Below, piece by piece: positions 3,101-64,000 of a stretch of DNA of 64,000 nt. The notes beneath the pieces were generated by a model, which searched no databases, was not told the origin of the DNA, and saw only the letters and a list, made by a program, of their open reading frames with translations. The translations under genes were made by a program, and so were the position numbers. The DNA comes from Xestospongia bergquistia (taxonomy: Eukaryota; Porifera; Demospongiae; Haplosclerida; Petrosiidae), in contig OZ014420.1 in assembly GCA_963965975.1 (NCBI GenBank), positions 1,638,001 to 1,702,000 of the forward strand, given 5' to 3'. The first letter of the stretch is position 1. Each line of letters starts with the position of its first letter.

Positions 3101-4295
3101 GTGTATTTAGGACAAGTATACAAAATAATGGAAGTCTTTCTGAAGGATCAGTAAACGACATAGAAAATGAAGTAAGCTACACCCCCATTTAATATAATTT
3201 TGTTTTTAAGGGAAAAGTTTCAGCGTATACAAATTTTCTGATTTACAAAATTTTCTGATTTTAAAGTACTTACTAACTTCGCTAAAATCAGTACACATAA
3301 TAAATTATAGGCTTAAGGGTCTTAGAAATGATTTTAGGGTGGTTCTTGGTATAATATGACTACGATGACATCAATATGACATAACACATAGTAATGTTAT
3401 CATAGTAAAAGTCATTTGACTACTATGACATCAACATGACATAACACATAGTGATGTTATCATAGTAAAAGTCATTTGACTACGATGACATCAACATGAC
3501 ATAACACATAGTGATGTTATCATAGTAAAAGTAACACCAAGAAGCATCCTACACCCTAAAACCTAAAACCTAACCCCCCTCCCCCACAATAAACCAAAAA
3601 ATAAAACATACATTCACATTACCATTATTAACCCTTATGACACATATCAATGTCATCATCATAGTACAAAGAAGCACCCTATACCCTAAAACCTAAATCC
3701 TAACCCCCCCCCCCCCTCCTTCCCCCCAAAAAAACAAAAATAAACCATACATTCACATTACCGTTATTAACCCTTATGACACATATCAATGCCATCATCA
3801 TAATACAAGTTACACCAAGAAACACCCTATAACTATGATTCTGCTATCCCTCAGCCTCCTGAATCAATAATCACACCTACAACTTCTTTGATATCTGATA
3901 TTGATCTTATACGATGTACTCGTCATATTGATGGAAATGTATCACTTCTAGCTGGTTATCTTGGTATCAAATCTACAACTTTAGAGGAGATTGAACATGA
4001 CTACAGAAAAGTAGAAACACAAGCATATTGGGTATTGAAGAAATGGCAAGAAAGTACCTTAAGCAATGCTCAACAATCTAATCTTCATGACACGCTGCAA
4101 GCATTAGGATTTCACAAAGCTGCCGAAAGGTATCTTTGCTTATTACACTAGATAAATAATATATTATTTTTTTGTATTAGTTTGATGAATCCCGAGCTAC
4201 CATTATCAAGGCAAAATCCACTGGCAAGTGAAAGTTCACAACCAAGTGAAAGTCCACAAATAAGTGCAGGTTCAAGGAAATGCCTTGTTCTGTGA
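134..4295 (+). CDS. Gene A: ROC-COR GTPase with C-terminal Death domains (5' end outside window)
   Basis: ROCO-type signalling GTPase. Exons read by eye: 134-2187, 2236-2483, 2532-2589, 2972-3060, 3111-3171, 3855-4129, 4181-4295, with stop TGA at 4293-4295. Phases agree throughout and give 965 residues in the window. The upstream boundary is an acceptor (TTTTATAG) at 126-133, so earlier exons lie outside. The large exon holds the Ras-like ROC domain: P-loop GAAGVGKTSFKRSL, switch-II-like WDCGGQP, and a THGDKL motif at the guanine-specificity position. A COR-like region (KIPSDVVPKVLLFYHDLGV) and a Cys-rich tail follow. Exon 2 (LNELAAYLEM...LLYEWIEHKGG) and the 3855 exon (LLAGYLGIKS...YWVLKKWQ) look like two Death-fold domains. 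Reading through the 2188 donor gives a short alternative tail ending at 2217. Two linker exons (2972-3171) are absent from gene B. The exact acceptor at 3855 is inferred. Known ROCO proteins are cytosolic; the partner is unknown. Confidence 0.85.
3355..3840. repeat. Tandem repeats in gene A intron
   Basis: Three near-identical copies of about 60 bp (core ATCAACATGACATAACACAT) occupy 3355-3530. They are followed by two copies of a roughly 145-bp unit with ACCCTAAAACCTAA-like stretches and C runs (3540-3840). These expand the intron between exons 3111-3171 and 3855-4129. The CCTAAAACC stretches look telomere-like but are too few and irregular to be interstitial telomere. Confidence 0.8.
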
Positions 4296-6446: not shown

Positions 6447-9400
6447 ATGGCTAAAAGACAAGAAGATGTGAGTACACAGTAGTTAAAATTATGAGAGCTT
6501 ACCTTGATAGAAATAATTACAAGTCATAATGTAACTATTCGATATTCATAAACCATATCCACCATGTATTAATAAGTCAAAAATTGATCTGTGTGTGATC
6601 CATGCTAACATTTTTAACGTGAGTAGCAAAATACTTGCTGTGCTAGTATTTATACTATTGGCCTGATTTACTTAAAAGACAGTTGGATGCTATAGGACAA
6701 CTATAAAGTTAGTTATATAGTCTCTATGAAAAATTAACAAAACCAGAGACAGCTACCACATAGCCTTTCTATCATAAATGATTTGTAGTAGCTATCACCA
6801 TAAAATATACAATTCCTGACAACTTTCATACTCTTACATACTTGATACTATTTTTTGTAGCTGTATGATTATAGTAAGATATGTTTGAAGATAACTAGAT
6901 ACTAAGTATAAGAGTAATTGGTTATTATTGCAAGATTAAAACAATTCTTTTCACTCAAAAATAACCGTGTTGCTTTAATTGAAATAAACAGTACATAGAA
7001 ATTAAGGAAGACTTAGACATGAATATGGCAACTATTGGTATGAGTCAGCTGAAGCAAAAATGACAGCAAAATAACATACTGTTTTCTGACACTTAAAAAG
7101 GCCAAGATTATTTGATTGAAGACAGCAGAGAGATCAGTCAACAATCGTTAAGTGAAACACAGCTATGGCACTGCAACTTTTATAGTTTTGTAGTCTTTCT
7201 AACGAACGATCTTGGTAATGAATCTGATTGGCAGTCATGTGATTTAACACTTTTGACTCCTGTTATGCATATAAATATATATTAGTGGTCATTTTACAGC
7301 AGAAGTCATACATTGACTCTGTATGGGTAATGCTCAGGGTTTAGGAGATAGGATCAGTTTAATACACATGGAAATATGGACTTTCTGCCAGATCTATATG
7401 TACTACATAGTTGTACATGCATTACATGATTTGGAAGCAATCTGGTTGCCAAAGTTATCTCAGTGTGTGGAATAATGAACAAGCCAAAAGGGAAGTGCAC
7501 TATTTTGAATACCTCAATCACTATGGCACCATAATTCTTATAAAACTATAAAGTGTAAGATTAATATACATTTCCATCACCTTGAGAAAGTTTTGTCTTA
7601 TCTTAATAAAGGCTAACATTGTCTCAAATATGGTATGAATGTATCCTATTGCACAGCCTTTATGCCTCAAATCTTGCAATACATACACAACTGGTATCTA
7701 AATATTCCTTAGTTGCTAGTATACATGGTTGATATGATCTAATGTATATAAGTTAGTTTTAAGTAAAAAATAATTTTTAAAGTAATTAACTTCTTTAAGT
7801 AAAAAGTGACTTTGTTATTTGTATTATCTGTTAAGCTAGGCTGCATCTAATATAGCATTGTTTTAGTAGGAAAAAGTTCATTTAGTCATTGTTTTTGTCC
7901 TTTTGTGGTGGAAGAATAATTCTTGTTTTAGTTCATTGAGATGGTTAAACCTTTTTTAGTTAAAGTTATTGCTGACTAATGTACTACAGTTTTAGTTCCA
8001 GTTCATTTCACAAGTGCAATAGAGTTTTAGTTGTAGTTCATTTTAGTTTGTCTCTCACTTAATTACAATGCTTTTCTATTTCATGGTCTTTATAATCATG
8101 CTAGTTATAAATGCTGTCTTTATTGGATATATGTTAACTCTAAACAACAATACTCCTCCTTTTTTATACCATAAGTTCCTAATGTTAAGTACAAATTTTA
8201 GTTTTAGTTTAATAAATATAATTTACTATAATGAGTTTCAGTTATAATTTTGATCAATTAAAACAACACTAATCTAAATCAAATGTCCATTAGGTATTAA
8301 TAAATTTTTATCATCTATCATCAATCATTTTAATCATTACTTTTTCTTTTTTCTACTATATATGTATATCCTATGATGATAACTTATAGTTTACATTTCA
8401 GTATGTAAGTATCAACACACACTTACAATAGCATTTTGTCAATTCAACCATTGTCTTCATTATCAGAACCCATCAATATGATGTAAACCCAATATTGAGT
8501 TATCACTAAGCCAAAAATGGTCTAACTCAATATGTATAAAGCCAACTAGAAGCCAAAAAAGTACTCTTTGAAGTTTATGTCCAATAACTGAAACTATGAG
8601 GGTGAGATAGATACTATTACAATTTAACTAACTGGGTTAGTTAACTTGAAATACTATCTGTTTATAACTTCATTGAAGTCATGATTCAATTACTATAACA
8701 AAGTTGCTATAGAAAACAATGTGGTTGTAGACACAACTAGTTGGCTTTAAACATATTGAATCACACTAGTTTAGCCTGTAGCAAATTAGAATTGGACTTA
8801 CATCATATTGATGAAACTGTGGTAACGAAGACCTCAGTTAAAATGACAAAATTCTTTTTCAATAACTTAGTATTATGTATTGTTTAATTATGTATATATG
8901 TTATTACCCATTGTCTTCTTTTTTTTTTCTCTACTATGATTACATACCATACTGTGATGACAAAATTTACAATGTATTCTACTTATTCAGGATGTAAGTA
9001 TAAACACGTATCATTATTATCATTGTTTTTGTTTCTTTTCTCTACTATGATCATATAATGATGATATCTTACATTATTTTTAGCGAGTAAGTATGAACAC
9101 ACATTAGTATTATATTGTTCAATTGTGTATTAATTATAAATCATTGTTTTTCTTTCTTTTTCTCTACTATGATCATAAAATGATGATACTTACACTTTAT
9201 TTAGCGAGTAAGTATAAACACAAATACTATTATGGATTATTTAATTATGTATTCATTGTAAATCGTTGTTTTTCTTTCTTTTCTCTACTATGATCATACT
9301 ATGATGTTGACTTGTATGTACTTATTTAGCGAGTAAGTATGAACACGCATTAATTTAATATAATCTTTTAATTATGCATACACAATATTAATCATTGTTT

Positions 9401-10236
9401 TTTTCTTTTCTCTACTATGATTCATACCATAATCATGGTAACTTATAATTTTTTTATTAGTTGATAAGTTGATAAGCATAAGCACACATTACTTTATTGT
9501 GTCTATGTATGTACTAATTGTTTTTCTTTCTTTTAATTCTTTCCTCATGATCATATTATGATGATAACTTTACCACTTATTCAGTCAGTAAGTGTTGTAT
9601 ATATACATTATTACATCATTATATGTGTCTTAATTCTGTATCTATTATTAATCATTGTTTTATCTTTTTCTGTACTATGATCTTGTGATGATAATTCACA
9701 TTGTATTCTTGTTCAGTACATAAGTATGAACATGCATTAGTATTATCTATTATTTAATTGTGTATACAAATTATAAATCATTAATTTTCTTTCTTTTTTC
9801 TACTATGTGTCTACTATATGATGATACTTTGTACTTTATTTTACATATTCAGCGAGTAAGTACAAAGAGACATTAGTAGTATATATTGTTTAATTACTGG
9901 CATAATTACCATTAGTAATCATTCTTTTTTCTCTAACTATGATCACATATATATGATAATAACTGGCCTGGTACTTAACTTATTTAGTTGGTAAGTATAA
10001 ACACAAATCATTGTATATTGTGAATTGTGTTAATGATTGTTTTTGTTTTTTCTCTATACTATGATTACATTATAATGATATTTGGACTGTATTTTACCTT
10101 TTTAGCGAGTAAGTATACATAATAGTGTTATGTATGTTTAATTAATCGTATGTATATACTTGTTAATCATTAATCATTGTTTTAATTGCCTAGAACATGC
10201 TGTGTATATGCCAGGCATCCCTATCATCATTACGGA

Positions 10237-10293
<57 letters not shown>

Positions 10294-13200
10294 GTCCTTT
10301 CACTTTCTTTTATCCCTACAATTAAAATTGAAAGCTATGAATAAAATTAAACTTCATATTACCAATAAATGTGGTAACCAATAAAGTTTGTAATCCCAAA
10401 CTATGAACACTACAACAATGGGGTTCAAATGATTGAGATTCAAAGCTTTGTAGCTTGCTTTCCAGACTATAACTTATGTTACTAGCATTCTATATTCTTG
10501 CGCAGACATTATTGGTAATTGTCCAGTCATTATAGTATTAGTAAGCGTTTTGTAGTGAAGTCCAAATCTCTCTAAACAATTATAAGATGATTCTTTCAAA
10601 TTTAATCTTGTTCCAATATCTATAACCATACTATCTACACTGTATCCCACCTATTTCGGCCTATAAGTATGAATGTACATTGGTTTTATTACTGTTTAAT
10701 TGCACATACATTGTTAATCATTTGTTATTCTTTCCCTTCTCTCTCTTTATGATGATAACCTACACTGTATTCTACCTTTTGTTTAGCGTGTAAGTATTAA
10801 CACAGATTATTATAATATAATTGTTTTGTGTACATATTATAAATCATTGCTTTTCCTTCCTTTTCCTACCTATGATCATATTATGATGATAACTTGTACT
10901 TTACTTATTCAGTTGGTAAGTATGTAATACGCACATTAGTATTATGTTTTGTTCTATGATAAATTATCGTTCATTATATTATATATTTTGTTGGTAGAAA
11001 TATTAGTAATATATAGCATTTATATAATTGAGTGACAATAATTAATCATTGCTTTCTCTCTTTATCTACTATAATGAAAATGTGATGGTCTTTCACATTG
11101 TTTTCTATTTGCTTAACATTCAAGGTTATTGATATTACATGAAAGGAATAAACTATGACACAAACTATCCTGAAGTATATAATACATGTCCCAGATACAT
11201 TCTGATATTTTTAATAAATGACATAAACCATGCTACTACATACATGATGATATTATGTTTATAAATTATATTGTATTTTTAAAATGCTTATTTCTTTTAT
11301 AGGCTAAAAGAATAAATGCTATGGAAGGTAGGGTTCTTTATTGAGTGAATAATTTAGTAGTTATATAGTTTATTACTGCAACAGACATCAAGTTTGTAAG
11401 CACATATGCATACATGTACTTGCTGTCAAAAGTGATGAATGAAATTATTTAACTGTCTACCTATATGCACAGCAATATATGACCATCACATGATAGATAC
11501 AATGATTGTGCTATATAAAATCACCTCTCTTTTTATTTTATTGATTGCATTTCCTCTTTTCTTCCAATTGCTAATTTAAAAATTATATTGCTCTTTCGTA
11601 TTTTATGAAATTTTATTTTGCTTTGTCTAACTTAACTGAATATCAAGTATTTTTAATCTATAGATGTTGCATACAAAAAAGCTTTAGCTGAAGGAGAGAT
11701 GGATATAGCATATGCAAGAATTATGGTACTAGGAGCAGCTGGTGTTGGAAAGACAAGCTTCAAACGATCACTCATGAAAGAACCTTATAACCCCAACATT
11801 AGTAGCACCATTGTCTCTGATGTCCATTCTCTGCGACCAATTGGACGAGAATGGCAAAAGCTAGGTCATGAAGATGAGGAGAAATGGAGAGAAGTCACAG
11901 AAGAAGACGAGCTGAATGAGATGGCAGAATTACTGGCTGCTGTACATCAAAACATATCAGGCTTTAATGAGTTTAGTAGCAAAGTAATTGCTGCTACCAA
12001 GTTATTTCCCGATTCTCATATGCTAAGAACCTCTTCAATATCAAGAGAAAAGATTGAAGAATTCAAGAATTCTCATGTTCAATCTGTTATCACAGAAGCT
12101 ACTGCTCGTGCTAGTTCTATACCCATGAGCTCAGCAATAAATATTACACCACAACCATTTCTTCATATTTGGGATTGTGGGGGTCAGCCTATTTTCCTAG
12201 AAATTCTCCCAGCATTTCTTACCTCTCGTACTATGTTCCTTCTCTTGTATGATGCCTCCAAGAGTTTTAAGGAAAAGTGGCAATCTTTGCAGAGAGTACA
12301 AGGAGAGGGAAGGTTTGAAGAGGAAGTTAACATTACCACAATTGATCTCCTTCTCAATTGGCTGTCCAATATTCATATTCATCTCGCAAAGTATGATGAA
12401 ACAGGAGCACTCTTAAATTATCCTCGTGTACTATGCATTGGTACACATGGTGACAAGCTCAAAGAAAAGGGCCAAACATATGACCAAAAGATACAAGAAA
12501 TTGAGTCATATTGCAAAGGAAAACCATTTGAAGTTCTTATTGATGGTTTTCACATTGTTGATAATACCACTGCTGGGAGTGGTGAAGGTGAAGATGTCAA
12601 TTTCTCTAAAGTGCGAAGTGCAATACGTGATTTCACCTACAACAAGCTCATTGTCAAAACACCAATTAGCTGGGTACTCTTTCGTAAAGTCATTCAAGCT
12701 CTCAAAGCAAATGTTATTAGTCTTGAAGAAGCTCATGCCATTGGTATAGCATGTAAAATACCCAGTGATGTTGTTCCCAAAGTACTCCTTTTTTACCATG
12801 ACTTAGGAGTGCTCTTGTTCTATCCTCATATTGCTGGTCTAGAAAATGTAGTCATTCTCAGTCCCAGATGGCTTGTGGATGCTCTTGGGAAAGTGTTAAC
12901 ACTAAAAGGAAGAGAAGACCATAAAACGCGACTTATGTGGGACTTGTTACGTGAGAAAGGAATACTTGTTCAACCTCTCTATGTAGCTGCCTGGAGAGAA
13001 GTTAAAGGCCTTGATCCAGAGTCATTGATTAATTTATTGGTTTGCTTTCGCCTTGCTGCTGAGGTGAAGACAGATCAATTTTATGATCCTAGTGTAAAGC
13101 AATACTTCTTACCTTTAGTATTGCCTTCAGCCAAAAAAGCATCAGTTTCACCAGGATACATTGAAAGAGCTACTCCTTTGCATCTCACATTTAGAACCGA

Positions 13201-15092
13201 GTTTGTACCACCAGGTTTTTTTACTCGTTTTATTACAACAATTGCAGAATCACCATTATGTGAGATCAACTTTGATAAAGGTGTATATCGCAATCAAATA
13301 AATATTGAATTTGGAGATCCACCAATAGATGAAGTAATTTTAAGTGAGCTACCTCATGCTATTCAAATTGATGTCCGTCGATATGCACCTGAAAGTGATA
13401 GTCTTGATAAGTTTACTCATGTCTGCCAAAAATTGTGTAGTTTAGTTAAGGAAGTAGCTAAAGATGTTGATAAATGTCTATTTACCTGTGATGATATTGT
13501 TGACAATAATGAGTCTGGCAAAGTATTCAAGGAAGTTCGATTTGTATGTGCTGCACCAGAGTGTCAGTCTACTTCAGGTTGTCATTATTTAAAGCACAAG
13601 AAAGGCCAGACCTGTGACCTATATCTACGTTGTAAAAACAGTGATGAGCATCGTGAAGTTTTACCTGAAGAAGGTTTCTGGTTTCCCAACAAGAGTACAG
13701 CATTGAAGGTAATTATTACTTGTATATGCACAAACATTTAATATTTTCGTGATTATAGAAAACTACCACATTGCAGCAAAAAGAGATGTTAGATATTAGC
13801 AAAAAGATTCCAAACCAAGAAAAATTATATGAGCTGGCTGCATGTTTGGAAATGACACAAAATTTAAATGTCATTCTTCAAGATCCTTCTAAGCAGAAAC
13901 GAGCTGGCTTTGAACTATTGTATGAGTGGGTGAATAATAAAGGAGGTATACGTAATGAAATGGAAAAAGTTCTACAAGAAATAGAATTACCACAACTTGC
14001 TGAAATGTAAGATATTTTTGTTATAACAAACAATAATAATTTCTTTTCAATCTAAATAAGGGTGAAGGAAAGTGAGTATGATCTTGAAAAGTTAAGCAAT
14101 AGGAAGAGTCCAAAAAAGGTTAGTAGTAAGACACTTCAGCTTTCTTTACTTACAGTTATTATACACAGGGTCACAGAAAACCATTGGCAAATCCAATTAA
14201 TATACCTCCTACTCATTATGAATCTGTCAGCTATGATTCTGGTATCCCTCAGTCTCCTGAATTAAAAATTACACCTAGAAGTTCTTTCATTTCTGATATT
14301 GATCTTATACGATGTACTCGTTATATTAATGGAAATGTATCACTTCTAGCTGGTTATCTTGGTATCAAATCTTCAACTTTGAAGGAGATTGAACATGACT
14401 ACAGAGAAGTAGAAACACAAGCATATTGGGTATTGAAGAAATGGCAAGAAACTACCTCAAGTGATGGTCATCAAGCTAATCTTCATGACACGCTGCGAGC
14501 ATTAGGATTTCACAAAGCTGTTGAAAGGTAACTTCGCTTATTAGACCAAATGTGTAATATATTACTGCTTTTTATTAGTTTGATGAAACCTGAACAGCCA
14601 CTATCAAGTGAAAGTCTGCCACTAACTGAAAGTCCACTATCAACTGAAAGTCTGCCACCAAGTGATAACCCGTTAGCAAATACAATTAGTATGCCTCCTG
14701 CTTGTTCTGAAACTAGTACCCTTCACTCTACACCCACAATCACACCCACAACTACTTTGATACGTAATGTTGATCTTTTACGATGTACTCGTCATATTCA
14801 TGGAAATATATCCATTCTTGCTGGCTCCCTTGGTATCTCTTCTGCAAATCTACAAGAGATAAAATGTGAGTATGAAGAAGTTGAGACGCAAGCTTATTGG
14901 GTACTGAAGAAATGGCAAAAAAACACGAGCAATGCTCATCAAGATGATCTTTATGATGTGCTGCAAACTTTAGGATTTCACAAAGCAGCTGAAAGGTATC
15001 TTTGCTTATTATATGTGTAATATATAATTGTTTTCATTAGTTTGATGAACCCTGAATTGCCACCATCAAATGAAAGTCCACCACCAAGTTAA
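6447..15092 (+). CDS. Gene B: ROC-COR GTPase with three Death-like domains and a single-codon exon array
   Basis: Complete paralogue of gene A. Start exon 6432-6467 (ATG at 6447, MAKRQED, A at -3, phase 0 end). Eleven candidate 3-nt exons lie between 8402 and 10915 (separate entry). Then exons 11302-11326 (AKRINAME), 11664-13708, 13759-14006, 14061-14118, 14169-14527, 14579-14995 and 15041-15092, with stop TAA at 15090. All phases close. The protein is 1,074 residues without the array and up to 1,085 with intact units only. ROC: P-loop GAAGVGKTSFKRSL, WDCGGQP, THGDKL. COR-like: KIPSDVVPKVLLFYHDLGV. The tail has three Death-like modules (13759, 14169 and 14579 exons), one more than gene A. The last two are near duplicates joined by a Ser/Pro-rich linker (SESLPLTESPLSTESLPP). 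The ROC-COR exon is nearly collinear with gene A, so the duplication is recent or homogenised. Inference: cytosolic death/innate-immune signalling GTPase. Confidence 0.85.
8471..8813. repeat. Fold-back (MITE-like) insertion inside array 1
   Basis: The ends are inverted repeats (ATCAATATGATGTAA...CCAA against TTGG..TTACATCATATTGAT), and further inverted similarity lies inside. It accounts for the long gap between array units 8402 and 8991, so it probably inserted into an existing array. Confidence 0.65.
10239..10290. repeat. (AT)n microsatellite
   Basis: About 50 bp of pure AT dinucleotide inside the 10106-10656 interruption of array 1. It creates a meaningless Ile-Tyr open frame. Confidence 0.95.
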
Positions 15093-31869: not shown

Positions 31870-31909
<40 letters not shown>

Positions 31910-32285
31910 CCAATGCTTACATCAAAGTAGTCTTCATAATCACTTTCTTCAGTCATTTCAGAGCTTGCTATAGAGCTAGCCTCCGACATCTATAAATATA
32001 TCATTGTAATGTCTAGCTAATATAATACTATAATGAATTGTTACTTGAGAGGTCAGGAGTTGATGGGTATTATCAGCTACACTATGTGGAGGGGTTAATA
32101 TTGTATTAGAATCAGTTAAGGTTGTATCAGTTTGTTCAGAAGTCATTGATATTTCATGTATTTTACACCATTCTAGAAATAAGGAAGAGAGAAAGAAAAA
32201 TATAGTATTACTCATGATTCTTCACTATTATTCCTAATATCATTACACAGAATTCTTTAGAATACAATTTATAAAGACAATTTGG

Positions 32286-32344
<59 letters not shown>

Positions 32345-45748: not shown

Positions 45749-45786
<38 letters not shown>

Positions 45787-46842
45787 AATGCTTACATCAA
45801 AGTAGTCTTCATAATCACTTTCTTCAGTTATTTCAGAGCTTGCTATAGAACTAGCATCCGACATCTATAAATATATCATTGTAATGTCTAGCTAATATAA
45901 TACTATAATGAATTATTACTTGAGAGGTCAGGAGTTGATGGGTATTATCAGCTACACTATGTGGAGGGGTTAATATTGTATTAGAATCAGTTAAGGTTGT
46001 ATCAGTTTGTTCAGAAGTCATTAATATTTCATGTATTTTACACCATTCTAGAAATAAAGAAGAAAGAAGAAAAAGAATTGTATTACTAATGATTCTTCAC
46101 TATTATTCCTAATATCATTACACAGAATTCTTTAGAATACAATTTATGAAAACAAATGGGTATAATGTTTATATATAGTATACACATTATCATTTTAAAC
46201 TGTAAAGGCTTTAGTTTGTAAACAGTTATAACTATCATGTCATAGAAATTATTTTCTTCTTGCACTCTAACAAAAAAGCCAGATTGCATCTGTGGATGAA
46301 GTGGGATTCATTTGGGTATCAAAATCCAAGCTTAACATCTACCACTGATGTAATGAACAAAGTACCCATGCCATTTATCTGGCAACGAGGACACTACAAT
46401 GTTGCTATTTAAAAAACAAACAGTGAGGTATCACTAATGACTTATACTTCTAGCTAAAATTGACCATTAATTGTCTTGTTTAGTAAATTATAAATCTAGA
46501 GAACCAGAATGTACATCAATGTCATGCACAAGGAGTTGAAATTTTTCCTGGAAGATTAATACAAAATATTTTAAGAAACACCATAATTAGACCATTAAAC
46601 TAAATGTTAAAACTGTCTTTTCTATCAAAAGAATATTCAAGTTCAATTCCCAGATGGTCATCCTTCATTACCATAGACACAATCTAGTGTTTTTTACATC
46701 TTGCATTGCACAGAGTTACCTCATGATTATAGGGATAAAGGGATCATTTGTCTATATAAAATGTTGACAATTTTCTGAGCAGGTTAGAGATGCATTTTAA
46801 GCAAATCTAGGTTAAAATCTAGGATAATGACACATCTATTGC

Positions 46843-51073: not shown

Positions 51074-54000
51074 ATGGCTAGCATACGAGACCTCAAATAT
51101 TTTGTGAGTCTAAGTATGAACCTACATTCACAAAACATGCACTATATGTGATCTGACTTTAAGTAATTAAACATTTTACTAGTGTCACTAATATAGGGTA
51201 CCAATGCTCATGTATTATAGTATCTAAACAAGGAAAACCTGAAAGGAATCATATCATCTATAACACATACCAGTATGTGACTTAATTCAGTGTTGTCCAG
51301 ATTCTTCATCAAAATTCCCATGGAATCACATAGTCTCATCTTACAAGATATGTGACTATGTGATTATAATAACATAGGATCTTCCTATAGATATGCTATA
51401 GGTATTTTGATGGCAAATTTGGTCATGATTTAGGAAAAACATACCGATTATTAAGAAAGTTTGGATGAGCAGCTATGTATACATAGTTATTATATGGCTA
51501 TTTTGTGCATGATATTTATACCAGGAAAATAATTATTAGACTACTTGGATACCAAGTTTGATAAACATTCTATATTGGTCAAATAGCAACTATTGTATAT
51601 ACATACAACCATACTAAGTTTGCAATAAGCGTAATTGTGTCACACATACAATATGTTTGATCTATTACAGATATATTCTCATACCTAGCCTTATATTGTA
51701 GACATTCTATATTGGATCTATTATAGACATAGTGTTTGGTAACAACAGAACAATCTGCATGACATTATGACAGGCAATCTGGAATTTAAGATGGTCAATT
51801 GTATCACGTGTATAATACATTTGATCTTTGCAGGTGTACCCTGCCTCTTCATCTGGAATTTAGGACGGTCAATCATAACAATGTTAAAATAACAATTACA
51901 TGCCATGCAACCACAAGTCAGCTTGAATATGATGAGTACAATGAGAAGTGTGATATTTAGATTGCTTTCTCCAAGGTTATCAACATTAGTTATATTACGA
52001 ATAATTTACAGAGTAATTACAGCTAAAACTTTCTCACAAGGCATGGCTTGTAGGTAAATGTGAATTATTTGCTTGGTTTTAATTTGGTATAGAGTTAGTC
52101 TATTATGCAAATATACTTTTTTGAGAGTGACTGTGTGAATGGATCACATGATCTAACTGATGCATTGTAATTTACATTACATGTAATACAGGGTGAGATG
52201 CGGAATAGCATACATCACATTGCTATCATTACTTGTAATACTAGGTGAGATGTTGAAAAGCACATTGATATCATTACTAAATTGACAGTTGTGTAGTTAG
52301 CATTAAAGATTCTGTTTAACATTGACAATATAAATTTCATGGATACTGGGCCAGTGTTTAAGGGTTGTCCCTATGTAATCGGTGGTAACTTTGCTGTGTC
52401 ATCATTTGTGAGGGCTGCCATAATAGAATTTACTGTCTTATATACCTACACGCTTTTTAAAAATTCATTTGTTAAAGTACATGAATTGTGTTGTTCTATA
52501 GTAACAAGTAACTAAAACAGTATATGTTATTAATAATTCTTGAATGTTGTGGGATGTAGTAGACTATTAATTAGTTAAAATAACCAATCTATTTTAAATA
52601 GTGCATGTGAATGTTAAGTAGAATGGCATTGTAACCATGGATACTTGCCAGTTAACAAACCATGAGACCTTTAACATGCTTTTTGAAGCATAAGAGTCTT
52701 TCTATACAAGACTAACTCAAGACTAATACTCAAAATAATTATAACGCTGGCGTTAGACTAACAATTAATCAACTTTATAAAGTTGATTAATTGTTGATCT
52801 AGTGTTATAATTATATACACTATACACTACTTAAAAATTGCTTAGTACTCTCAATTATTTCTGAGAATTGTCTTAAAATAAACTTAACTTACTATAAACA
52901 GATAAATGTCATTATTGGCTTTTCTCCTTTTTTTACTATAATCAAACAACAATAATAAATAACATGAACTATATATATTCTACTGACTCAGGAAGTGAGT
53001 ATAAACAATCACTAGTATTATGTATATCTTGTTTCTTAAGAAGTAACCAGTACAGATTAATTATGAACTATGCTATTTACTAAGAAAAAAGAATACTGTT
53101 ATATTTTATAAACCTAAGGAACCCCTGTGTAATAATGATACTATTATGATAATCTAGACTGCATTGTACTTATTCAACCTGTACACATAAACATTATGTT
53201 TGTCTAATTGTATATTTAATAATATTGAGGTCATTTACATCAATTTTTTTCTCTTTTTCTACTATGACAATAACCTACATTGTATTCTACTTATTCAGGA
53301 AGTAAGTTTCAATATATAAAAGTAGTGTGTTTTGTTTGATTTTGCATTATCTCTTAGAGAAAGATTGTCAAAATTTTGTGATATCATTTTTTAAATCTGT
53401 TGGTTTCATTGTAAGCATTTTTACTTTTAGCTCTTAAAGCTTTGTTTATGAAGCTGCAATTTTTAATGATTTATTAAGCAAACTTTTAACAATCTAACCA
53501 TGTCAAATTTTGTGTTCAAGTTCAACAGATTATAATTCTGTAATGTCCTCACAAAATTTAGCTGATTTTGCACTATCAGTATATTTGTGGTTTAACTTGT
53601 TACTGCATGTAATGTTTTCATTTTGTAAAATATTTACAAAGACAGTTTAAATATGGTAGTTAAAGCTAAAACAATGTCATGCTTATTAGATGTAGCATTC
53701 TTTTGAAACAAACCAGTTTTCCTTGTATGAAGTTTTGTGGGTATATATACCTACTGTTAATGCAAATGACCTTTAAAGTCTCTTTGCAAATTTGTTTTTT
53801 GGATTCTATAAAGCATTCTTAATTTTTAAAGCTTTCTTTCACTTATCATTTTTTATGAATAGTTTAATTAGATTATCATACTCTAAGAGTTAATCAATCT
53901 CATAATTATATTCAATATGATAAATATAACTATAACGTATGCTAGTCTGTATTCTACCTACAAGTATGATTGTGCATTAGTATTATATATAGTTTCAATC

Positions 54001-57000
54001 GTAAACATAACTGATATAAATCATGCTTCGTTATCAACATAATTATATATTATTATATTGATGTTATTTACATTTTCTCTCTTTCTACTATAATTATGAT
54101 AAAATTACAACCTTCTTTACATTCTACTTATTTAGGAAGTAAGTATATACATACATTCATTTTATATATATATTGTTTTATAGTGCCCAAATTATACTAT
54201 GTTATAAACTCTTTTTTCTATAACTTTGTTGTTATACCCTATCAATATCATAGATTAGGAAAGTTCATTAAAAATTGCATAATTCACAATGTGCACAAAT
54301 TAAACACACTAAAATGTTGCATACATTGAAAGATTTATATCAGGAAAATTTATAACAATTATGTAATACACACATATGTGTTACATCATGGTGTTGAAAT
54401 AAACACAAAAACAGCAGAAAATGAGACTCATGAAATTGTAGACATTATACATTTAATTATTAGAACAAACTCTGAAACTATTTAATAGCGTATTCACGAT
54501 ATTGTTTAAATAGTTATTGGATATACATTAACAAGTTAATTATAATGATCACTTCAATATTTTCACCACATCTACCTTTTAATATAATGCATGGATTTTG
54601 AGGCCTTCTTGAGTATGGAATACCTTCTTTTTCTTATCACTTTATACATAATATTGCCTCCTATCTTCTAAGAAGAAGAGCTTGAACAAATGCATATATC
54701 TTCTTTAGCTTGCTAAATATCTAACAATTACTCCAGTTTTCTCTACCACCACTACATATCTATCTTTATTATTCAACAGCTCTCTTTCACAAGCTAGTCT
54801 CTCCCCAATCATTGCATTCCAGATCATTTGGTAAACACGATAGCCTCTAATATAATAATCCCTATCATACATATAATGCTCAATGTGTTCAACATACATA
54901 ATTTTGTGGTTAATTAATTTCATACATGCCTGCCTCCTTGTGAAAAACTTCTTCAGCCTGTTAATATTTAACATGAAACGTTCATGACATGAACATTTCC
55001 CAATCTATGGTATGCATGAATTCACACAATGTACTGTTAAACTCATTTGTTTTTCTCTTATTTCTCTTTATAATGATATTATGATGATGATAATTACTTA
55101 TCCTACTTATTCAGTTGTTAAGTATGAACAGACATTACTATTATATATTTACGGAAGCCGCAGACGGACATTCCAATTCCTTTTTCTTATTTCTTCCGCA
55201 AACCTTGGCGTATTTAAAAATTCCAATTAACGATCCAGTTGATGAGTCCAATTTCTCATTCCTAATTCCAATTTTGGCATGTGCGCCATTTCTAGGCTTT
55301 TCTTGTTACTTAATAAAATGTGGAGTGTGAGTACCACAAGCTGTCTCTTAGAATTGAGCGTCAGCAAGATGTTTCCAGTTAGGTTGGGTCCCTGACTTTG
55401 GTTGCATATTGTAGTTCTATTATTTAGAGAGGCTGAGAACGGACATCAAAACTTTGTATAACCCCGTTATATTGAAATTGGATATAGGAATTGGAATGTC
55501 TGTCTGAGGCTTCCATATATTTTTTTTAATTTGTTATCAATTATTATTCTCCCTTTTTTCTACTTGTATTATGATGACAACCTATAATGTATCCCACTTA
55601 TTCAGGATGTAAGTATGGACACATGTTAGTATTTTGTTTTATTTAATTGTATATTAATTATTAATCATTGTTTTTATCTCTTATCTACTATGATCATATT
55701 ATGATGACAACCTACCACTTATTCAGGATGTAAGTATGAATGCATGTTCGTATTAAATATTGTTTAATTGTGTATTCATTATTAATCATTGTTTTTCTCT
55801 ATTTATGTACTATGATCATGTATTATGATGACGTCCTATATTTTATCTCTCTTATTCAGGATGTAAGTATGAACACACATTAGTCTTATGTATTATTTAA
55901 TTGTGTATTCACTCATTACTAATCATTGTTTTTCTCTCTTTTATCTACTATGATGATATTGATGATATTATAATGACAAACTACGCTGTATTTATATATC
56001 CTACTTATTCAGTTCGTAAGTATGAATACATATTTAATTTAGTATTATGTGTTGTTAAATTGTGTGTCCCTTATTTTGTTTTGTTTTTTTCTCTATGATC
56101 ATTTTATGGTGATAACCTACACTATATTCTTATTCAGCCTGTAAGTATAAATATACATTAGAATTTTATATTGACTATATCTGGTTGTAAATCCCAATGA
56201 TGCATAAATCATTAACATTCTCTTTCTTTTCTATACTATGATCAATAATCCACACTGTATCAGATTGTAAGTATATAAACACACATTAATATAGATATTA
56301 TTTGAGAGAGTATGTTATTTTGGTTTTCTCCTTTCTTTCCATGATAATGGATAACTACATAATGTATTATTTGATTGTGTATCAGTCTATTATTTATATG
56401 TAAACTTGATTTTCCTATTTTTCTATGATTGTATTATGATTAAATGACCTATACACCTATCCTCCTTATTCAGCGGGTAAGTACAAAGATGATTTAGTAT
56501 TATGTATTTCATTAACCATTATTTTCTAGTTTTTTATTTGTTATGAACACACATTTAATTAGTACATGCATATTATTAAATGTGTTGAACATGTTTCAAT
56601 CAAACTTTATGTTATTTCTCTCTTTCTATGATCGTGTTATGATTATATTGAATGACCTCTCCAATGTATCATTTTATTCAGCGGGTAAGTAAACAAATGT
56701 ATTATTTTATATTTCATTAATTACTAATTCGTGCATCTATTTTTTTCTACTATGAATCATACTGTGATGATAACCTACCACTTGTTCAGAGAGTAAGAAT
56801 AAATACACAATAGTATTATCAGGAACCTATAGCCTTGCAAAAAGGAAGGAGTCTGCAACTACATGGAACAATAGCAATCAAAACTCTGTGGATGACTATT
56901 ATTATTATTATACAAAAGAATTATGAATACATTTAACTTAATTGTATTCATAATTCCTCAAGTGTGACTTCACATGAAAGCACTTAAGCATTGTCATAAG

Positions 57001-60000
57001 CAGGGTGCATTTAAAACAACTCCAGCTTCTAGATGGTAGTTGATACTCCTTTCTTTCATGTAAAGCTATATATTGGATGTGTATTAATTGCATGTGTATC
57101 AATCACAAATATATGAATCATTTATGTTTTTTTTTCTTTTTTATCACTATCTACTATATGATCAAACTACAATTGTAATATACAATGTATCCTACTTGTT
57201 TAGAGAGTAAGTATAAGCATGTATTAATATTCTGTACTGATTAACTCTGCATTGTAATAACTTACTATTGATTTTTCCTCCATACATAATCATACTGTGA
57301 TAACAATCTACACTTGATCCAGTCTGTAAGTATAAGTACATATCATATATTATGTATAATGTTTTATAGTGTACAAATCATTATAAATATTTTGTTTTTA
57401 TCTTTCTTCATATGATTATTCGTGATGGCAACCTACACCATGTCCTCATGACTCAATTAGGCTGTAAGTCTTTGTATATATGATTGTATTTTAATTTTCA
57501 TTTTTCTTTATTATGATCATGGTAACCTATACTGTATCCAGTCTGTAAGTATGAACACAAATCATATATATATAATTATTTCATTGATGATATATTAATT
57601 AATAATTTGTACATGTACATGTATAAATGTTTTGGTTTTACTATCTTTTCTTTACTATTACCATACAATGATGAAAAAATATATTGCTATTCAGATAGTA
57701 AGTACTAATGTACACTACTGTTTGATCATGTCAATTATTAAGAATGTATCTGTCACTGTTTCTTTTCTCTTTTTATCTATAAAACTATGACAATAATCTA
57801 CAATGTGTTCTACTTATTAATTAAGGTGGTAAGTGTAAGCAATCATTAGTATTATATATTTTTGATTATAATTCTGACTAATTTGTCGTTTTATTTTTTC
57901 TCTTCTATATAACTGTGTTATGTCATAACTAACCTGCGCTGCATCTAGGAAGTAAGTAGATAAATGTACAGTGGAACTTCCATTTCTATGAAGGACACTA
58001 AGCTCAAAACTGAATGTCTTCTAATTAATTATAAAACCAAGGTACAAGAATTTTCTTTGTCCCAATTGTCGTGTTGCTTCTAATAATGGACAATGGGTTC
58101 TATGTGTATGAGTTTCACAATGGTTGTTCACAATTTTTCTTTCAAAGGAACTTTGTTTAAGGTAGTGCTTATTTTGTCCTTGGAAAGACCATCTATTCAT
58201 TTTAAATAAAAGATGGTTATAAAGCCAACTTAGTAACAAAAATATAAATTTTCCTTCACTCTCTGATCTGAAAAGAGCACCTGGGCATCTATATAATAGA
58301 CATTTATACTTGTCCTAATTGTGTTCTACTATTTTGAGGTTCCACTGTAACATTATTATGTTCAGGATCACTAATTTATTTGATCTTTTTTTTATATTCT
58401 ACTATGGTCATACTGTGATGATATCCTACCTATACTAATTCAGATGGTAAGTCATGTATATACATGTTAGTTTTATGTGTTTTTTTGGATTGTGTATTGA
58501 TCACTTCTCTATTTTGGATTTTATTTTATTTTCTATGTTTACATAATAACCTACTGCTTACTCAGATGGTAAGTATATCAACACATTATTTTATATAATT
58601 CATTAGTATTGTATAAATAACTTATTTATATGTCATTTTTTTCTCTGCTACAATCATATTATTCTGTGATGATAACCTGTGCTCTATCCAGTCTGTAAGT
58701 ATGAAAAGATATCATAATAAAATATTATATATTATTTATTGTTGTGTCAACCATTGATGTTTATTTTTTTTCTCTATGATGGTAACATGTACTGTATCCA
58801 ACTTATTTAGACCGTAAGTATAAAAATGTATTAATATAATGTATTGTTTAATTGTGTCATTTACTTCTTACTGTTGCCACATTGTCTTCTCACTAAGCAA
58901 CAATACTCAGTTAATTTATGATAGCATAAGATTGCATTAAATTTAGGGAAAACTACTCTATTTTGCTACCCATAGTTGTAAATTTTACTCGAATTACTTC
59001 AAGGATCAACACAGTATAATTTATCCCAATGATAGACTATTCATTTATCAATGTCTCTATTTTGAAATATACTGTGAAGAGACAGTATTCCATACAATAA
59101 AAATGTAGTCTGAAAATTTATTACATTTGATCAAGTGTAATCTCACATTTTACATGTATGAATCATACTATAAACTATTTAACTATCTTTAATAATTATA
59201 AGTCTTTATTTTTCTCTACTATGATTAACTATGACAATAACGGGCACTATACAGTCTGTAAGTATTAACACATTTCAAATTTTATTATGTATTGTTAGTT
59301 TATGTGTATCTATTATTAATATATAAATTTTTGTTTATCTCTTTACTATATATATTCATACCACAACAATAAACTATTCTACTTCTTATACTTTTCAGAG
59401 AGTAAGTATAAACACACATTGTTATAGTTTAATTATGTATTAATTAGTTGTATATGAATAATCTATTTAAATCATATTGCTCTTACTATTTTTTATTTTT
59501 TATTTTATTATGATCTTACTACAATGATAACCTACCTACATACGTGTACTTGTTCAGATGGTAATTATGAACACACATGCATTAGTATTAAATTTTTGTT
59601 TCTTGTGTATGAATCATTTTTTTCTTTTTCTCTATGTTGACATAATAACTTAAACTACAATCTACATACTTAGAGAGTAAGTATAAACTTGTTCATTCTG
59701 TATTAATCATTAATTTATATGTTATCTTGGTTTTTCTCTACTACGATCATATTATGATGACCACTTACACTATATCCAGTCTGTAAGTATGCTATGTATC
59801 AGTATTATGTATTGTTTAATAATGTATCTATCACTGATGTTAAAACATTCATTTTTTTCTTTATTATGATCATACTATGACATATGCTGTATCCAACTTC
59901 TAAAGGATGTAAGTATGAATGTAAATCATGCTGTATTGTTTTATTTTATATTAATCTTATAAGTCATTTTATATTTTTCTCTATTTATGTTAATACTCTG

Positions 60001-63000
60001 ACAATAACCTACACTACATCCAGTCTGTAAGTATGAACACAAAATCATAATATTTATTGCTTGATGGTGTATTCATAAAATTGAACTATCTTTTCTTTAC
60101 TATGATCATATTGTGACAATAACCTACACTTTATCCTATTTATTCAGGTAGTAAGTATGGATACATTTGTATTATAATTTTCAATTCTGTCAATTTTAAT
60201 AATTGATCTAATATTTTAGTTTTCTGCCTTGCTTGCTTGCTATGTATGCGAAGCAGTTCTAACACGTTTTGGACCACAGGAGCACATGAAGAAAGGGGAA
60301 TAGCAGCAAACTACTATGTTTCTGCTAGATCCATTTGCCCATATAATAGTCTCAACACCTACTTGAATTATTAGAGCAAACCTTACGACTCTGCAGTATC
60401 TCAAATGCATGAAAGGTTTTTTGATCTCGTGCCTTAAGTATAATCAAACTTAGCTTTAGAATAATGTGCTTAAAGAGTACTTTCATCTTCTCTGCCTCAT
60501 TGTTTGGAGAATTATCTATATACAACATCTGCTTTCTTATTACTATTTGATCATGTCCAATATTTAGAGTCACTCAGCACCTTCCATGTATGGTCAAAGT
60601 AGTGATGAACCTAGCTAAAACATACCGTATGAGCAAATGTTTTTGAGATTAATATGTTCATTAATTCTATCAAATAAAAATTCGAGACTTAATATTTCAT
60701 AACAACATTGATCCTCCCCCCACATATACAATGTTATACTACATAATTAATTTTTGCAAAATAAGAAAATTCACAGAAATCGTGAAATAGTTTTACTGAA
60801 AATTATTCCCACATACAGTAGTACACCTAACTAATGGGATTGGTGCTCCACCCTCCTCTTCATGTGCTCCTGATATTAATTATATTGGTATGTATATTTA
60901 TAAAGTAACAGTTGACACTCATAGCAACCAATGAATATGATTACTATTATTATAAATGTTTAAAATTGTTTGTGACAAATTGAAGCAATATGAGGTCAGA
61001 AACTTAAGAAAATGTCTTAGGCAACCTATAGCTTCTGCTAACTCTTTATTCTTTATACTTTACAATAATCCCAAAACAACAGTGTTAAAAATAATCTTTG
61101 GATAATTTTTACAAATTTAAATTTGTTTCTCTCTTTCTTTTGTTATGAATTGAACTATGCTACAATGTATCCACCTTGTTTAGGATGTAAGTATAAACTT
61201 GTGTTAGTTATATAGTATTTATTATAATGTCTTTTTCATTCTACTATGATCACACTATGATGTTAACCTATATAGCTATTGTTTAAGAAGGTAAATATAT
61301 ATGACCACATGTTTTATATTACATATACTACGACTAGATACCATAGAAGTTCAAAGTGCACACTGTATATATGTGTATTAATCACTAATCTAGAAGTACA
61401 GCTGTGAACCTAAAGTTTTATAAGCCTCACCTAAAGACCTAAATGTGTTAGCTAATTTTGTACTATTTCTGTAGCCAAGTACTATCAGTAATAAAATGAT
61501 GATTCTTCCTATAGAAATTGTAATTATTACCTTATTAAATGAAGACTTTGAGTATAATACTTGCCAGTTTACTAGTTCAGCAATGCTCTTTAAGCAATAA
61601 ATTACATAATTATAAGTCTATCTTGTTTTAATGTCTTTTCTCTTTTATGATGATAACCTAACTTGTATCCACCTCACTTGAGCACAGAAAGTAAGCACAT
61701 ACATGAACAAACTTTCAATGCATTATTTGATTTGCTATTTATTTTTCGTTATTATATGACTGTAATACAGTGTCTTCCTGCATTTGTAGGACCCTGTATG
61801 AAACACTAGAATTTTTGAAAGAATTTTATGAGTACTTTTCATTTAGAGTTTTTGGGAATTATCTGGCATGTAATAGCAGTGCCTATGTAGGGATGGCCCA
61901 GATTGTCCATTGAAATAAATTGTCAGAAAACACATAATCTCTCACCCAAAACACATCAGAGTATCTCAATACTTGTCATTCTTCCTCCCTACGATAATGT
62001 CCATGATGTATTGCAAATATTGCAATATGAAAGTATTATGTCTACATTATATTCCTACTTTGTTTCAAAACCCTTAGAATTATCATTCCTATTATACATT
62101 ATCAATAGTTTAATAATGATTACTATTATATTTGATATATTTTTGTTATAGTAATAGACTAGTGTTTTTTATTCTTTTAGGTACTTAGAATTGGTACTGT
62201 GGCAGGTAGGTTCTTATTGAGTAAAGTGCCATCCAATAACAGAGTTCTTTCAACTAACTCTTCACTATTCATGTAGCATTGTATTTGCGTAACATAACTT
62301 ATTATTCAACATTACACCTAATACACACATATACCAGTCCCAACAATGTAATGACTACATGGCATGTATATTTTGAGGCAGTAAAAGCAGTAATTTAGGA
62401 ATGTTATGTACTGTGTTCTGCGCAAACCCCCAGATTCAAATTAAGTTCATTGCTTAATATCCATATTTGTCTGAAATGATCTACCATACTTTAGAGATTG
62501 ACATGTGAAATTATGCAAATTACATTGCTATTAATGTTGTCTTAGTTTGTTTTTGTTTTTTTTTAATTATAATTAGTTATAATTAGGTTTTGGCCCTTGA
62601 ACAATGTCTTTAGTTAGTTAGAGTTGTTAGTCATTTCCTGCATTATAAAAGTTTTGGTTATTGTTTATGGTTTTAGTTATAATGTAAATAAGTGCTGGAC
62701 AATATCACATGATGAATAGTCTAATGCTAATATATTGTTCACAATGCTTCTAGACTATACACCAAGTTAAACTGTGTACTAAATAAAGTAAACTTTATTG
62801 ACATGTGCTAATGGAAAGAGAAATTAATAGAATGAAATAGAAATGAATGTATTACCAAAAGAAAGTCTTGAACAATAGCTAGTTTTGTACGCCTTTCTAG
62901 ATATTTCAATTTAGCATACTACCCTCTACATAGTTATATTATGACCTTTGACCTTTCTATAAATCAATTAGCTAGCATAGTTTAGTTACTTGTAGTTAGT

Positions 63001-64000
63001 TTTGCTCTCTCAGATAATTTTAGTTAATTTTACATATTTTAGAATAATTTTAGTAAGTTATTATTAGTTAACTAAAACAACAGTAATTGTAACCAATGGA
63101 TATTATTTGAAGCTTTGAGTTAGACATTAGTGATCAAGGCAAGAAGAGCAACTTCTAATAGCTCAGTCTTAAAATTAGCAAAAACCTCTTTACAGCAACA
63201 ACAGTATCATAAAAATCTTTATATGATTTTTACAATTATAATCTTGTTATAGATAGTGTATATCAAAATGCTCTAGCCAAAGGAGAAATGGACGTAGCAT
63301 ATGCCAGAATCATGTTTCTAGGAGCAGCTGGTGTTGGAAAGACATGCTTCAAGCGATCACTCATGAAAGAACCTTGGAACTCTCGTCTTGATAGCACCAT
63401 TGTCTCTGATGTCCTATCTCTACGACCAATTGGACGCGAGTGGCAAACACTAGGTAATGAAAAAGAAGAAAAGTGGAGAGAAGTCACAGAAGAAGATGAG
63501 CTAAATGAGTTAGCAGAATTAATGGTTGCCGTACTTCAGAATCGTTCTAGTATGAATGAGTTTAGTAGCAAAGTAATTGAAGCTACCAAGTTGTTTACAG
63601 TTTCTCGTATGCTTGAAACCTCTTCAATTTCAGAAGAAAAAGTTAAAGAATTTGAGAAATCTCATGTTCAATCTGTTCTTTCAAAAGCTATTGCTCGTGC
63701 TAGTTCTATACAGAGGAACTCAGCAAGAAATATCACACCACAACCATTTCTTCATATTTGGGATTGTGGGGGTCAGCCTATTTTTCTAGAAATTCTCCCA
63801 GCCTTTCTTACATCTCGTACTATGTTCCTTCTCCTTTATGATGCCTCTAAGAATTTTAAGGAAAGGCGTCAATCTGTACAAATAGTACAAGGAGAGAGAA
63901 GGGTTGAAGAAGATCTTTGTATTACCACTATTGACCTCCTTCTCAATTGGCTGTCCAATATTCACATTCATCTCGCTAAGCATGATGAGAAAGGAGCACT
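51074..64000 (+). CDS. Gene C: ROC-COR GTPase, 5' part with a large single-codon exon array (3' end outside window)
   Basis: Start exon 51059-51103 (ATG at 51074, MASIRDLKYF, ends phase 0 at GTGAGT). Thirty-four intact candidate 3-nt exons lie between 52992 and 61690. Exon 62181-62205 (VLRIGTVA) is 25 nt, the same length and phase as its counterpart in gene B. The large ROC exon starts at 63253 and is open to the window end. Visible motifs: GEMDVAYARIMFLGAAGVGK with Cys after the P-loop Lys-Thr (GKTCFK, where genes A and B have GKTSFK), then WREVTEEDELNELAEL, WDCGGQPIFLEILPAF and LLNWLSNIHIHLAKHD. Intron 1 carries a 455-bp segment (52375-52830) copied from upstream of the PARP gene. Inferred role as for genes A and B. 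Confidence 0.8.
52375..52830. repeat. Segment duplicated from 39020-39490, in gene C intron 1
   Basis: Shared stretches include GTAATCGGTGGTAACTTTGC and GAGGGCTGCCATAATAGAAT, and the fold-back with centre AACTTTATAAAGTT. It lies just before the first array unit. Confidence 0.85.
54705..54974 (-). pseudogene. HIRAN-like protein fragment inside array 2
   Basis: Minus-strand frame of 89 residues with IRGYRVYQMIWNAMIGE, LACERELLNNKDRY and VVVVEKTGVIV. This resembles the HIRAN-like module (RGYHVY...W...IGE...C.RE..N..DRYAVAV...IVG) that is common in invertebrate genomes. The expected Gly-His after IVG is changed and a stop follows directly, while downstream sequence still hints at the family (LFFLRR). 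It has no promoter or partner exons and sits in a long gap between array units. A decayed insertion is most likely. Confidence 0.45.
55153..55516. repeat. MITE-like element with about 28-bp terminal inverted repeats
   Basis: GGAAGCCGCAGACGGACATT...CC at the left and GGAATTGGAATGTCTGTCTG...CTTCC at the right are inverted copies with about three mismatches. It lies between array units 55115 and 55606. Confidence 0.75.
57969..58347. repeat. MITE with CAGTGGAACTTCC ends and TA flanks
   Basis: Left end TA-CAGTGGAACTTCC, right end GAGGTTCCACTG-TA, giving a TA target-site duplication. This fits a non-autonomous Tc1/mariner-pogo-type element. It interrupts array 2 between 57949 and 58444. The internal frame at 58021-58239 has no known match. 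Confidence 0.75.
60271..60875. repeat. Element with CAGGAGCACATGAAGA inverted ends
   Basis: CAGGAGCACATGAAGAAAGG near 60274 and CCTCTTCATGTGCTCCTG near 60871 are inverted. The interior includes an unsupported frame at 60352-60573. It lies in the gap between array units 60148 and 61184. Confidence 0.6.

Follow-up and report, generated by a model that had tools for sequence, protein, structure and literature searches.

In the ROCO genes of brown algae, tandem exons of 72 bp in phase 2 each encode one leucine-rich repeat (LRR) (PMC11378527; Zambounis 2012, cited therein), and these exons are described as shuffled, under diversifying selection, and alternatively spliced (PMC11378527). The micro-exon genes (MEGs) of schistosomes carry numerous short, symmetric exons whose skipping leaves the reading frame intact, with a raised ratio of nonsynonymous to synonymous substitutions (dN/dS) and variation of the protein; most of the exons are no longer than 36 bp, in that account their length is not a uniform 3 nucleotides (nt), and the proteins have signal peptides (PMC8293314). 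Isolated microexons of 3 nt are reported from human RPS24 (PMC12686416) and Drosophila homothorax (PMC7392893), and spliced microexons of 1 nt from the plant genes APC11 and VPS55, the VPS55 exon having a conserved GTRAGT donor (PMC8831610). Here we describe arrays of putative one-codon exons in ROC-COR GTPase genes of the sponge Xestospongia bergquistia. The window, a stretch of 64,000 nt (C10:1638001-1702000), lies in a ROC-COR gene cluster that spans ~300 kb, and the genome searched comprises 146.5 Mb in 21 contigs. No tandem array of one-codon exons is described in the titles and abstract openings of the open-access literature among the matches listed.

The array noted initially lies on the + strand of the window (52989..61698) and contains 31 intact one-codon units plus about 4 degenerate ones, counted as a YAG acceptor, 3 nt, and then a GTRAG, GTANGT, or GTAANT donor. 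Its codons are, from 1 to 16, GAA GAA GAA GAT GAT GAT TTC CCT ATT CGG CGG AGA AGA TCT GCT TCT and, from 17 to 31, ATA GAA ATG ATG TCT ACC TCT AGA ATG AGA TCT TCT GTA GAT AAA. The first-pass annotation had counted 34 intact repeats, which is close to this number, and two of its central observations were borne out: the exon of exactly 3 nt between splice sites, both in the window and in the cluster-wide length control given below, and the absence of stop codons (0 of 31). Two other details did not hold. The reported spacing of 105 to 150 bp is true of just 14 of 30 intervals, the full range being 81 to 1470 bp, and the GATAAC said to precede each unit is present for 6 of the 31 window units and for 23 of 390 units overall, which leaves GATAAC unsupported as a general branch point. 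The annotation had also described the array of a single gene. That array is confirmed, but a second one in the same window (8399..10923, + strand) was overlooked, with 11 units reading TAT GAT CGA CGA CGA TCA CGA TTG CGA CGT TTG, and the feature extends to the whole family. Across the window, YAG-NNN-GTRAG occurs 43 times on the + strand versus 0 on the - strand. One degenerate unit (55112..55123, + strand) has kept its CAG acceptor and the 3-nt spacing and has lost its donor (TTG followed by TTAAGT), and those at 57823, 59903, and 61285 have an AAG acceptor.

In the cluster DNA examined (C10:1380001-1580000 and further pieces up to the window, with ~41 kb of the interval from 1.58 to 1.638 Mb lying outside the counts), 390 units form 15 arrays of 4 to 75 units, all on one strand. 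This set follows a slightly wider donor rule than the 358 strict units recovered with a unit profile, which detected 423 stretches at E values up to 1, every one on the + strand and 418 of them inside arrays. The pattern YAG-N{k}-GTAAGT occurs 343 times on the gene strand when k is 3 and no more than 7 times at any of the remaining k values from 0 to 24; the opposite strand has it once at k = 3 and no more than 8 times at other values. These strand and length controls rule out chance splice-like motifs. With at most one mismatch allowed, the consensus TTYAGNNNGTAAGTATRAACAC matches the genome 129 times in forward and once in reverse orientation (control, 1 and 0). Among the 100 matches listed, all on one strand, 99 are at C10:1.399-1.623 Mb and 1 is on C12, where it lies 4.9 kb upstream of a paralogous ROC exon; the single reverse-strand match and 29 forward ones fall outside the 100 listed. 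Intron length has a mode of 129 nt, from which 228 of 326 introns deviate. The donor is GTAAGT in 353 of the 390 units, and conservation across donor positions +1 to +6 is 95% or higher, in part as a result of selecting the units by donor; the commonest base at exon positions 1, 2, and 3 accounts for 42, 33, and 69%.

None of the 390 units is a stop codon. Column shuffling expects 11.0 stops and never reached zero in 5000 shuffles, with units that share ancestry and are not independent, while local base composition leads to an expectation of 28. The array codons specify 18 amino acids and, compared with the ROC exons, are enriched in Pro, Ser, Arg, Asp, and His and slightly in Glu; Asn and Trp are absent, with AAT found 0 times versus 10.9 expected by column composition. 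The third base is T in 270 units, and 72 of 73 Pro codons are CCT, versus 38% in the ROC exons. Some arrays contain runs of the same codon, among them six Pro (PPPPPP) and seven Glu (EEEEEEE). Most of the degenerate units, as read by eye, retain the 3-nt spacing. Broken units make up 7 of 24 in arrays 3 and 8, which have degenerate ROC exons, versus 4 of 157 in arrays 0, 5, 6, 9, 12, and 13 (Fisher, 7e-5), in a post hoc comparison that includes some borderline "broken" calls and leaves out arrays 1, 2, 4, 7, 10, 11, and 14. Among those left out, array 2 combines ten AAG acceptors with an intact ROC exon. We also found eight tandem units with an AAG acceptor and the codon GAT at C10:1425244-1426114, a broken-acceptor unit amplified in tandem.

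The exons on either side of the arrays have consistent phases. In the cluster DNA examined, the arrays lie 0.2 to 4.2 kb upstream of the ROC-COR exons of tandem paralogues, several of which are degenerate, and Pfam domains Roc, COR-A, and Death are found in the gene family, with TIR domains nearby. The two complete ROC-COR exons of the window score 44.0 and 44.6 bits for Roc (cutoff, 27) and 51.5 and 51.3 bits for COR-A (cutoff, 35.3), which places them in the Roco family, and the ROC translation contains the P-loop GAAGVGKTS. The ROC exon starts in phase 1 (by eye, 11 genes). A 25-nt exon candidate was present in all 10 arrays examined for it, out of 15, in a search that imposed the length class (1 mod 3) and left the 25-nt length and the recurrence of sequence free; eight candidates are clearly alike (AKRVHAVE, AKRLHAVE, AKKFSAVE, and so on), and two, INEVDNNE and VLRIGTVA, are unlike them. 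The last base of the 25-nt exon would complete the first ROC codon, since the ROC exon starts in phase 1. For the start exon, the search in 12 arrays required an ATG exon with a phase-0 end before GTRAG, and 10 of the 12 have a plausible candidate with a GTGAGT donor. Five are clearly alike (MAEKQDQDHYHL twice, MAEKQDQDYNQL, MAQKQVQDHDHL, and MAQKEDQDHNQL), and the resemblance is looser for MASKQIDNIDI, MAQQQDL, MAKRQED, MDEDQKKDEDTNRP, and MASIRDLKYF; by eye, the start exons (MAEKQDQDHYHL and similar) are hydrophilic. Given that the phases of start exon, 25-nt exon, and ROC exon agree, the array codons would stand in phase 0 between two coding exons. In the gene noted initially, the candidate start exon, one of three, is at 51074..51103 (+ strand; MASIRDLKYF, 30 nt, donor GTGAGT) and resembles those of the paralogues in length, phase, and donor, not in sequence. 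The 25-nt exon at 62181..62205 (+ strand; VLRIGTVA plus 1 nt, phase 0 to 1) matches the AKRVHAVE exons of the paralogues in length and place, with little likeness of sequence. Both exons had been proposed by the first-pass annotation, and both have counterparts in paralogues. The ROC-COR exon follows at 63253..64000 (+ strand) and continues past the window, matching C10:1701249-1703315.

The three exonic bases vary far more than the introns that flank them. A total of 389 units (one was dropped) were each paired with their closest relative by intron sequence. In 150 nearest-neighbor pairs whose introns are on average 5.8% different, the mismatch frequency is 44% at the first exon position, 45% at the second, and 27% at the third; for held-out intron triplets given the same treatment the median is 9%, and the highest value, 27%, falls at donor positions +7 to +9. 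The differences fall at the amino acid level: over five divergence bins, 159 of 225 pairs differ nonsynonymously and 4 differ synonymously, and among fourfold-degenerate codons whose first two bases are equal, 2 of 36 pairs have a different third base. Where two complete introns have the same length and differ at 1 to 3 positions, both flanking codons differ in 46 of 81 pairs and both are the same in 13, and for identical 95-base flanks, 2 of 33 pairs have different codons. Near-identical introns are found between different codons. Neighboring introns are also mosaic in a collinearity test of 163 units with close relatives for both introns; 50 are collinear with those relatives, all 50 with the same codon, and 113 are not, 65 of them having another codon. 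The simplest account would be that frequent recombination or conversion homogenizes the introns and moves codons as cassettes, with selection preserving codon diversity.

The same layout recurs in a distant gene. The genome contains at least 69 ROC matches, from 64 scored of 419 candidates. Among these, a gene on C1 that is 53% identical to the query has ten 3-nt units within 1 kb upstream, with 0 stops; seven units are strict and three have a weaker acceptor or donor, and they are followed by a 25-nt exon, CAAGCTAAGCAGAAAGAAAAAAGAA (1 mod 3). The introns of this gene are little alike among themselves and gave no same-strand BLAST match to the C10 cluster at 1e-3. Upstream of four other C1 ROC genes (47 to 48% identical), TTATAG-NNT-GTAAGTCT with at most one mismatch occurs at 45 places on the gene strand, spaced by multiples of about 140 bp, and the spacing controls k = 4 (37 matches) and k = 2 (33 matches) have none in this interval; these positions suggest arrays there as well. 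The motif occurs at 19 more places at 10.84-10.85 Mb, with no ROC match among those listed. The layout appears to be older than any one repeat, because the distant gene has it with unrelated introns and four more genes suggest it, and we reject a plain recent tandem repeat as the full account on the grounds of those unrelated introns. Weak evidence comes from the wider pattern TTNYAG-N{k}-GTAAGTNT, which has 314 genome-wide matches at k = 3 and 134 at k = 4, since its backward-read controls have 66 and 239.

Related motifs were also observed elsewhere. At C1:17394434-17402462 (+ strand) there are at least eight TTATAG-NNN-GTAAGTGT motifs (TGG, GGG, CGG five times, and CAG), many about 645 bp or multiples of it apart and with no listed ROC match adjoining; they may represent another array or a gene-family repeat. 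TTATAG-TGG-GTAAGTAT occurs three times at C1:16633567-16633866 and twice at C1:16848912-16849071, on the + strand with 140- to 143-bp spacing, away from the listed ROC genes. Among the matches listed, about twenty places with 4-nt spacing are scattered over 0.95 Mb on one strand of C5 (4182006-5128402, + strand), perhaps a dispersed gene family.

Overall, the feature is real, is found throughout the family in the cluster examined, and, to judge from the DNA, is shaped like coding sequence under diversification. We consider it probable that each codon is a microexon and that diversified codons between homogenized introns would specify a hypervariable peptide before the GTPase. The first-pass annotation's symmetric one-codon exon of an immune-type ROC-COR gene is strongly supported by the exact length, the lack of stops, and the exon counterparts in paralogues, and further by the amino-acid-level differences and by the recurrence in a distant paralogue. 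On this model, a unit would pair a short intron (modal length, 129 nt) with a downstream exon that is exactly one codon long, and a gene would consist of a start exon of about 7 to 14 residues with a phase-0 end, up to 75 one-codon exons, the 25-nt exon, and the ROC-COR exon. Joined in the mature mRNA, most likely mostly in genomic order, these codons would yield a Pro/Ser-rich, charged, hypervariable peptide directly N-terminal to the GTPase. Stepwise intron-defined or recursive splicing is most likely, because exon definition should fail with exons as small as 3 nt. Introns would probably be removed one by one: the upstream exon joins the YAG of a unit, one codon is added, and the intact GTAAGT left after that codon could serve as the donor for the next YAG. 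GTAAGTAT fully matches the 5' end of U1. With nearly all splice-site information in the introns, the three exon bases would be free to vary, and the near-identical introns may act as a recombination substrate through which whole codons behave as in-frame cassettes that can be gained, lost, and shuffled, the introns being homogenized while selection keeps the codons diverse. The peptide probably provides recognition, or a tag, in an intracellular receptor for immunity or allorecognition whose signaling passes through its ROC-COR and Death domains; we put this role forward as a hypothesis from the domains and the diversification.

Several observations weigh against the microexon reading, for which the case that units are spliced and translated is strong but indirect. 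Shared descent means that the shuffle test of stop codons overstates significance. Array 2 has eight tandem AAG-acceptor units plus two more and yet an intact ROC exon, and the ROC exons downstream of arrays 3, 7, and 8 are broken. The contrast between exon and intron shrinks with divergence, such that in the 60 to 90% identity band the exon positions mismatch in 57, 69, and 42% and the top intron triplet reaches 43%. Where the introns are identical, 19 of 21 pairs retain both codons, most of them from one block duplication, and this retention is what plain block duplication predicts. In the gene models, several genes offer more than one start or 25-nt candidate (for example, CLPAFVGP at 61771-61795 rivals VLRIGTVA), one of the 12 arrays is without a start exon candidate and one has an unlike candidate only, the upstream DNA examined for one array lacking a start exon being just ~1 kb. 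Phase was imposed by the search and candidates are multiple, and the recurrence of length and sequence is for this reason the sole evidence from the exon searches. A genome pattern search with up to 3 mismatches found no retrocopy of the spliced 25-nt/ROC junction. Among distant genes, one on C14 (51% identical; 1 kb read) has one unit and a 19-nt exon (1 mod 3), and the four C1 genes are known mostly by motif positions from a search for NNT codons only. Finally, C12:4209879-4221906 (- strand) has at least ten YAG-NNNN-GTAAGT places at multiples of about 286 bp, and with this pileup at 4-nt spacing a motif cluster alone is no proof of exons.

That same pileup is one reason to consider whether the arrays are a noncoding satellite or intronic minisatellite, amplified with splice-like ends and never translated, as would also fit tandem units of ~130 bp and the block duplication of some arrays. 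We regard this as very unlikely in view of the zero stops, the exact 3-nt length, the excess of 159 replacements to 4, fourfold sites that are as quiet as introns, and the 53%-identity ROC gene whose ten 3-nt units have introns unlike those of the cluster and little alike mutually. The quiet fourfold sites also bear on exon-targeted hypermutation, by which mutation rather than selection would vary the three bases. Replacement of whole codons between units with almost identical introns might be expected from such a process, but the third base differs in just 2 of 36 fourfold pairs, and the codon is retained in all 50 units that have collinear intron relatives; its chances appear slimmer still, with mutational bias remaining a possible contributor to codon diversity. 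Mobile introns, inserted in the manner of introners at successive codon boundaries of an older peptide, would leave near-identical introns between different codons, as is seen. The 99 listed consensus matches in the C10 cluster and the one upstream of the C12 paralogue, all on one strand, are not the distribution of an introner family, and phase-0 insertion every 3 nt, hundreds of times, is hard to credit. We reject the mobile intron, since the listed unit matches stay with the gene family, and of all the accounts considered we give it the least credence.

The remaining alternatives accept one-codon exons and concern how they are chosen. Tandem interchangeable exons resemble Dscam arrays in form, and a single codon per transcript might be selected in a mutually exclusive manner. 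This is a remote prospect: arrays contain many copies of the same codon (CCT in 72 of 390 units), which would be pointless if one were chosen, introns of ~129 nt give no obvious steric block, and a one-residue swap would hardly account for the diversification. Ordered inclusion of most units fits better than the choice of one. Combinatorial splicing, in which variable subsets of the exons would provide very many N-terminal variants per gene in one animal, was put forward by the first-pass annotation and is a more substantial proposal that we nonetheless judge unlikely. Every subset would be in frame, as all units are 3 nt and their splice sites look interchangeable, recursive donor use would permit skipping, and brown algal ROCO genes are reported to combine tandem symmetric exons in this way (PMC11378527). 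Against this, the Pro and Glu runs gain little from subset choice, and diversity that arises in the germline with ordered inclusion fits at least as well. We lean to mostly ordered inclusion of the microexons because of the same-codon runs and the block duplications that keep codon order. A tentative, and on balance doubtful, extension is that homogenized introns allow recombination to insert, delete, and swap whole codons of a hypervariable recognition peptide in frame and that recursive splicing also adds them combinatorially. In that case the N-terminal tags on a death-signaling ROC-COR receptor would differ between individuals, and perhaps between cells, and would serve in self/non-self or pathogen recognition.

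The second array of the window belongs to a gene whose candidate start exon, at 6447..6467 (+ strand; MAKRQED, phase-0 end, donor GTGAGT), is one of three within 3.5 kb upstream of the array and was picked for its likeness to MAQQQDL and MAEKQDQDHYHL. A 25-nt exon (11303..11327, + strand; AKRINAME plus 1 nt, phase 0 to 1) lies in the interval between the array and the ROC-COR exon, which occupies 11664..13738 (+ strand), starts in phase 1 after TATAG, and has Pfam matches to Roc (2.1e-11) and COR-A (1.5e-13). Two Death-domain open reading frames (ORFs) are located 3' of this exon (14130..15020, + strand; Pfam Death, 7.6e-9 and 1.1e-8). A third paralogue has its ROC-COR exon at 134..2214 (+ strand), so that any array would be upstream of the window, and a Death-domain ORF 3' of it at 3804..4151 (+ strand; Pfam Death, 6.4e-10). 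The Pfam scan took in nine window ORFs, and the ends of the two complete ROC exons of the window are taken to be the ends of the open frames. Between the two array genes, TIR-type ORFs are found at 17037-25963 (those at 17037 and 24657 by Pfam and that at 21134 by eye), with a Death-domain ORF beside them at 19558. Closely similar ORFs and motifs at 30474-33105 and 44342-46505, also between the two genes, appear to reflect a segmental duplication.

If RNA data confirm the microexons, they would represent a new way to build and diversify a protein, one amino acid per tiny exon, in which a single codon may be the unit of exon shuffling. The layout would make each insertion, deletion, or swap in frame, with splice signals held in the introns and coding bases left free. 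It would also be a genetic route to hypervariable recognition that is new, found in a GTPase family with suspected immune roles in brown algae. The splicing of 3-nt exons by the tens in a row, which exon definition should be unable to recognize, would in addition put the spliceosome to the test. Tiny exons tend to escape standard gene prediction and RNA-seq alignment, and similar arrays may for that reason be hidden elsewhere.

Compared with known systems, the isolated microexons show that exons of 1 to 3 nt do get spliced; they are single exons, and a tandem array or hypervariable codon is not reported in the parts of those sources that describe them. Arthropod Dscam shares with the sponge genes the use of tandem arrays of alternative exons for recognition diversity. 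Dscam exons encode parts of immunoglobulin domains and are mutually exclusive, whereas an exon here is a codon, and the repeated identical codons argue against exclusive choice. The schistosome MEGs are matched in their short symmetric exons, which here would be the 390 units of 3 nt, skippable in frame. They differ in that the exons here are all 3 nt, tandemly amplified between near-identical introns, and attached to a cytosolic-type GTPase, and the coding sequence is not mostly micro-exonic, as the ROC-COR exon alone is ~2.1 kb. The array genes do not belong to the LRR-ROCO type of brown algae, as the array exons are 3 nt long between phase-0 exons and no LRR family is among the Pfam hits of the window ORFs scanned. 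Even so, the brown algal ROCO family, as far as it is described in the source consulted, appears to be the closest idea: both are ROC-COR families with a putative recognition segment made of tandem, same-phase, shuffled exons, which in the sponge would be one codon each, are separated by near-identical introns, and are followed by Death domains downstream.

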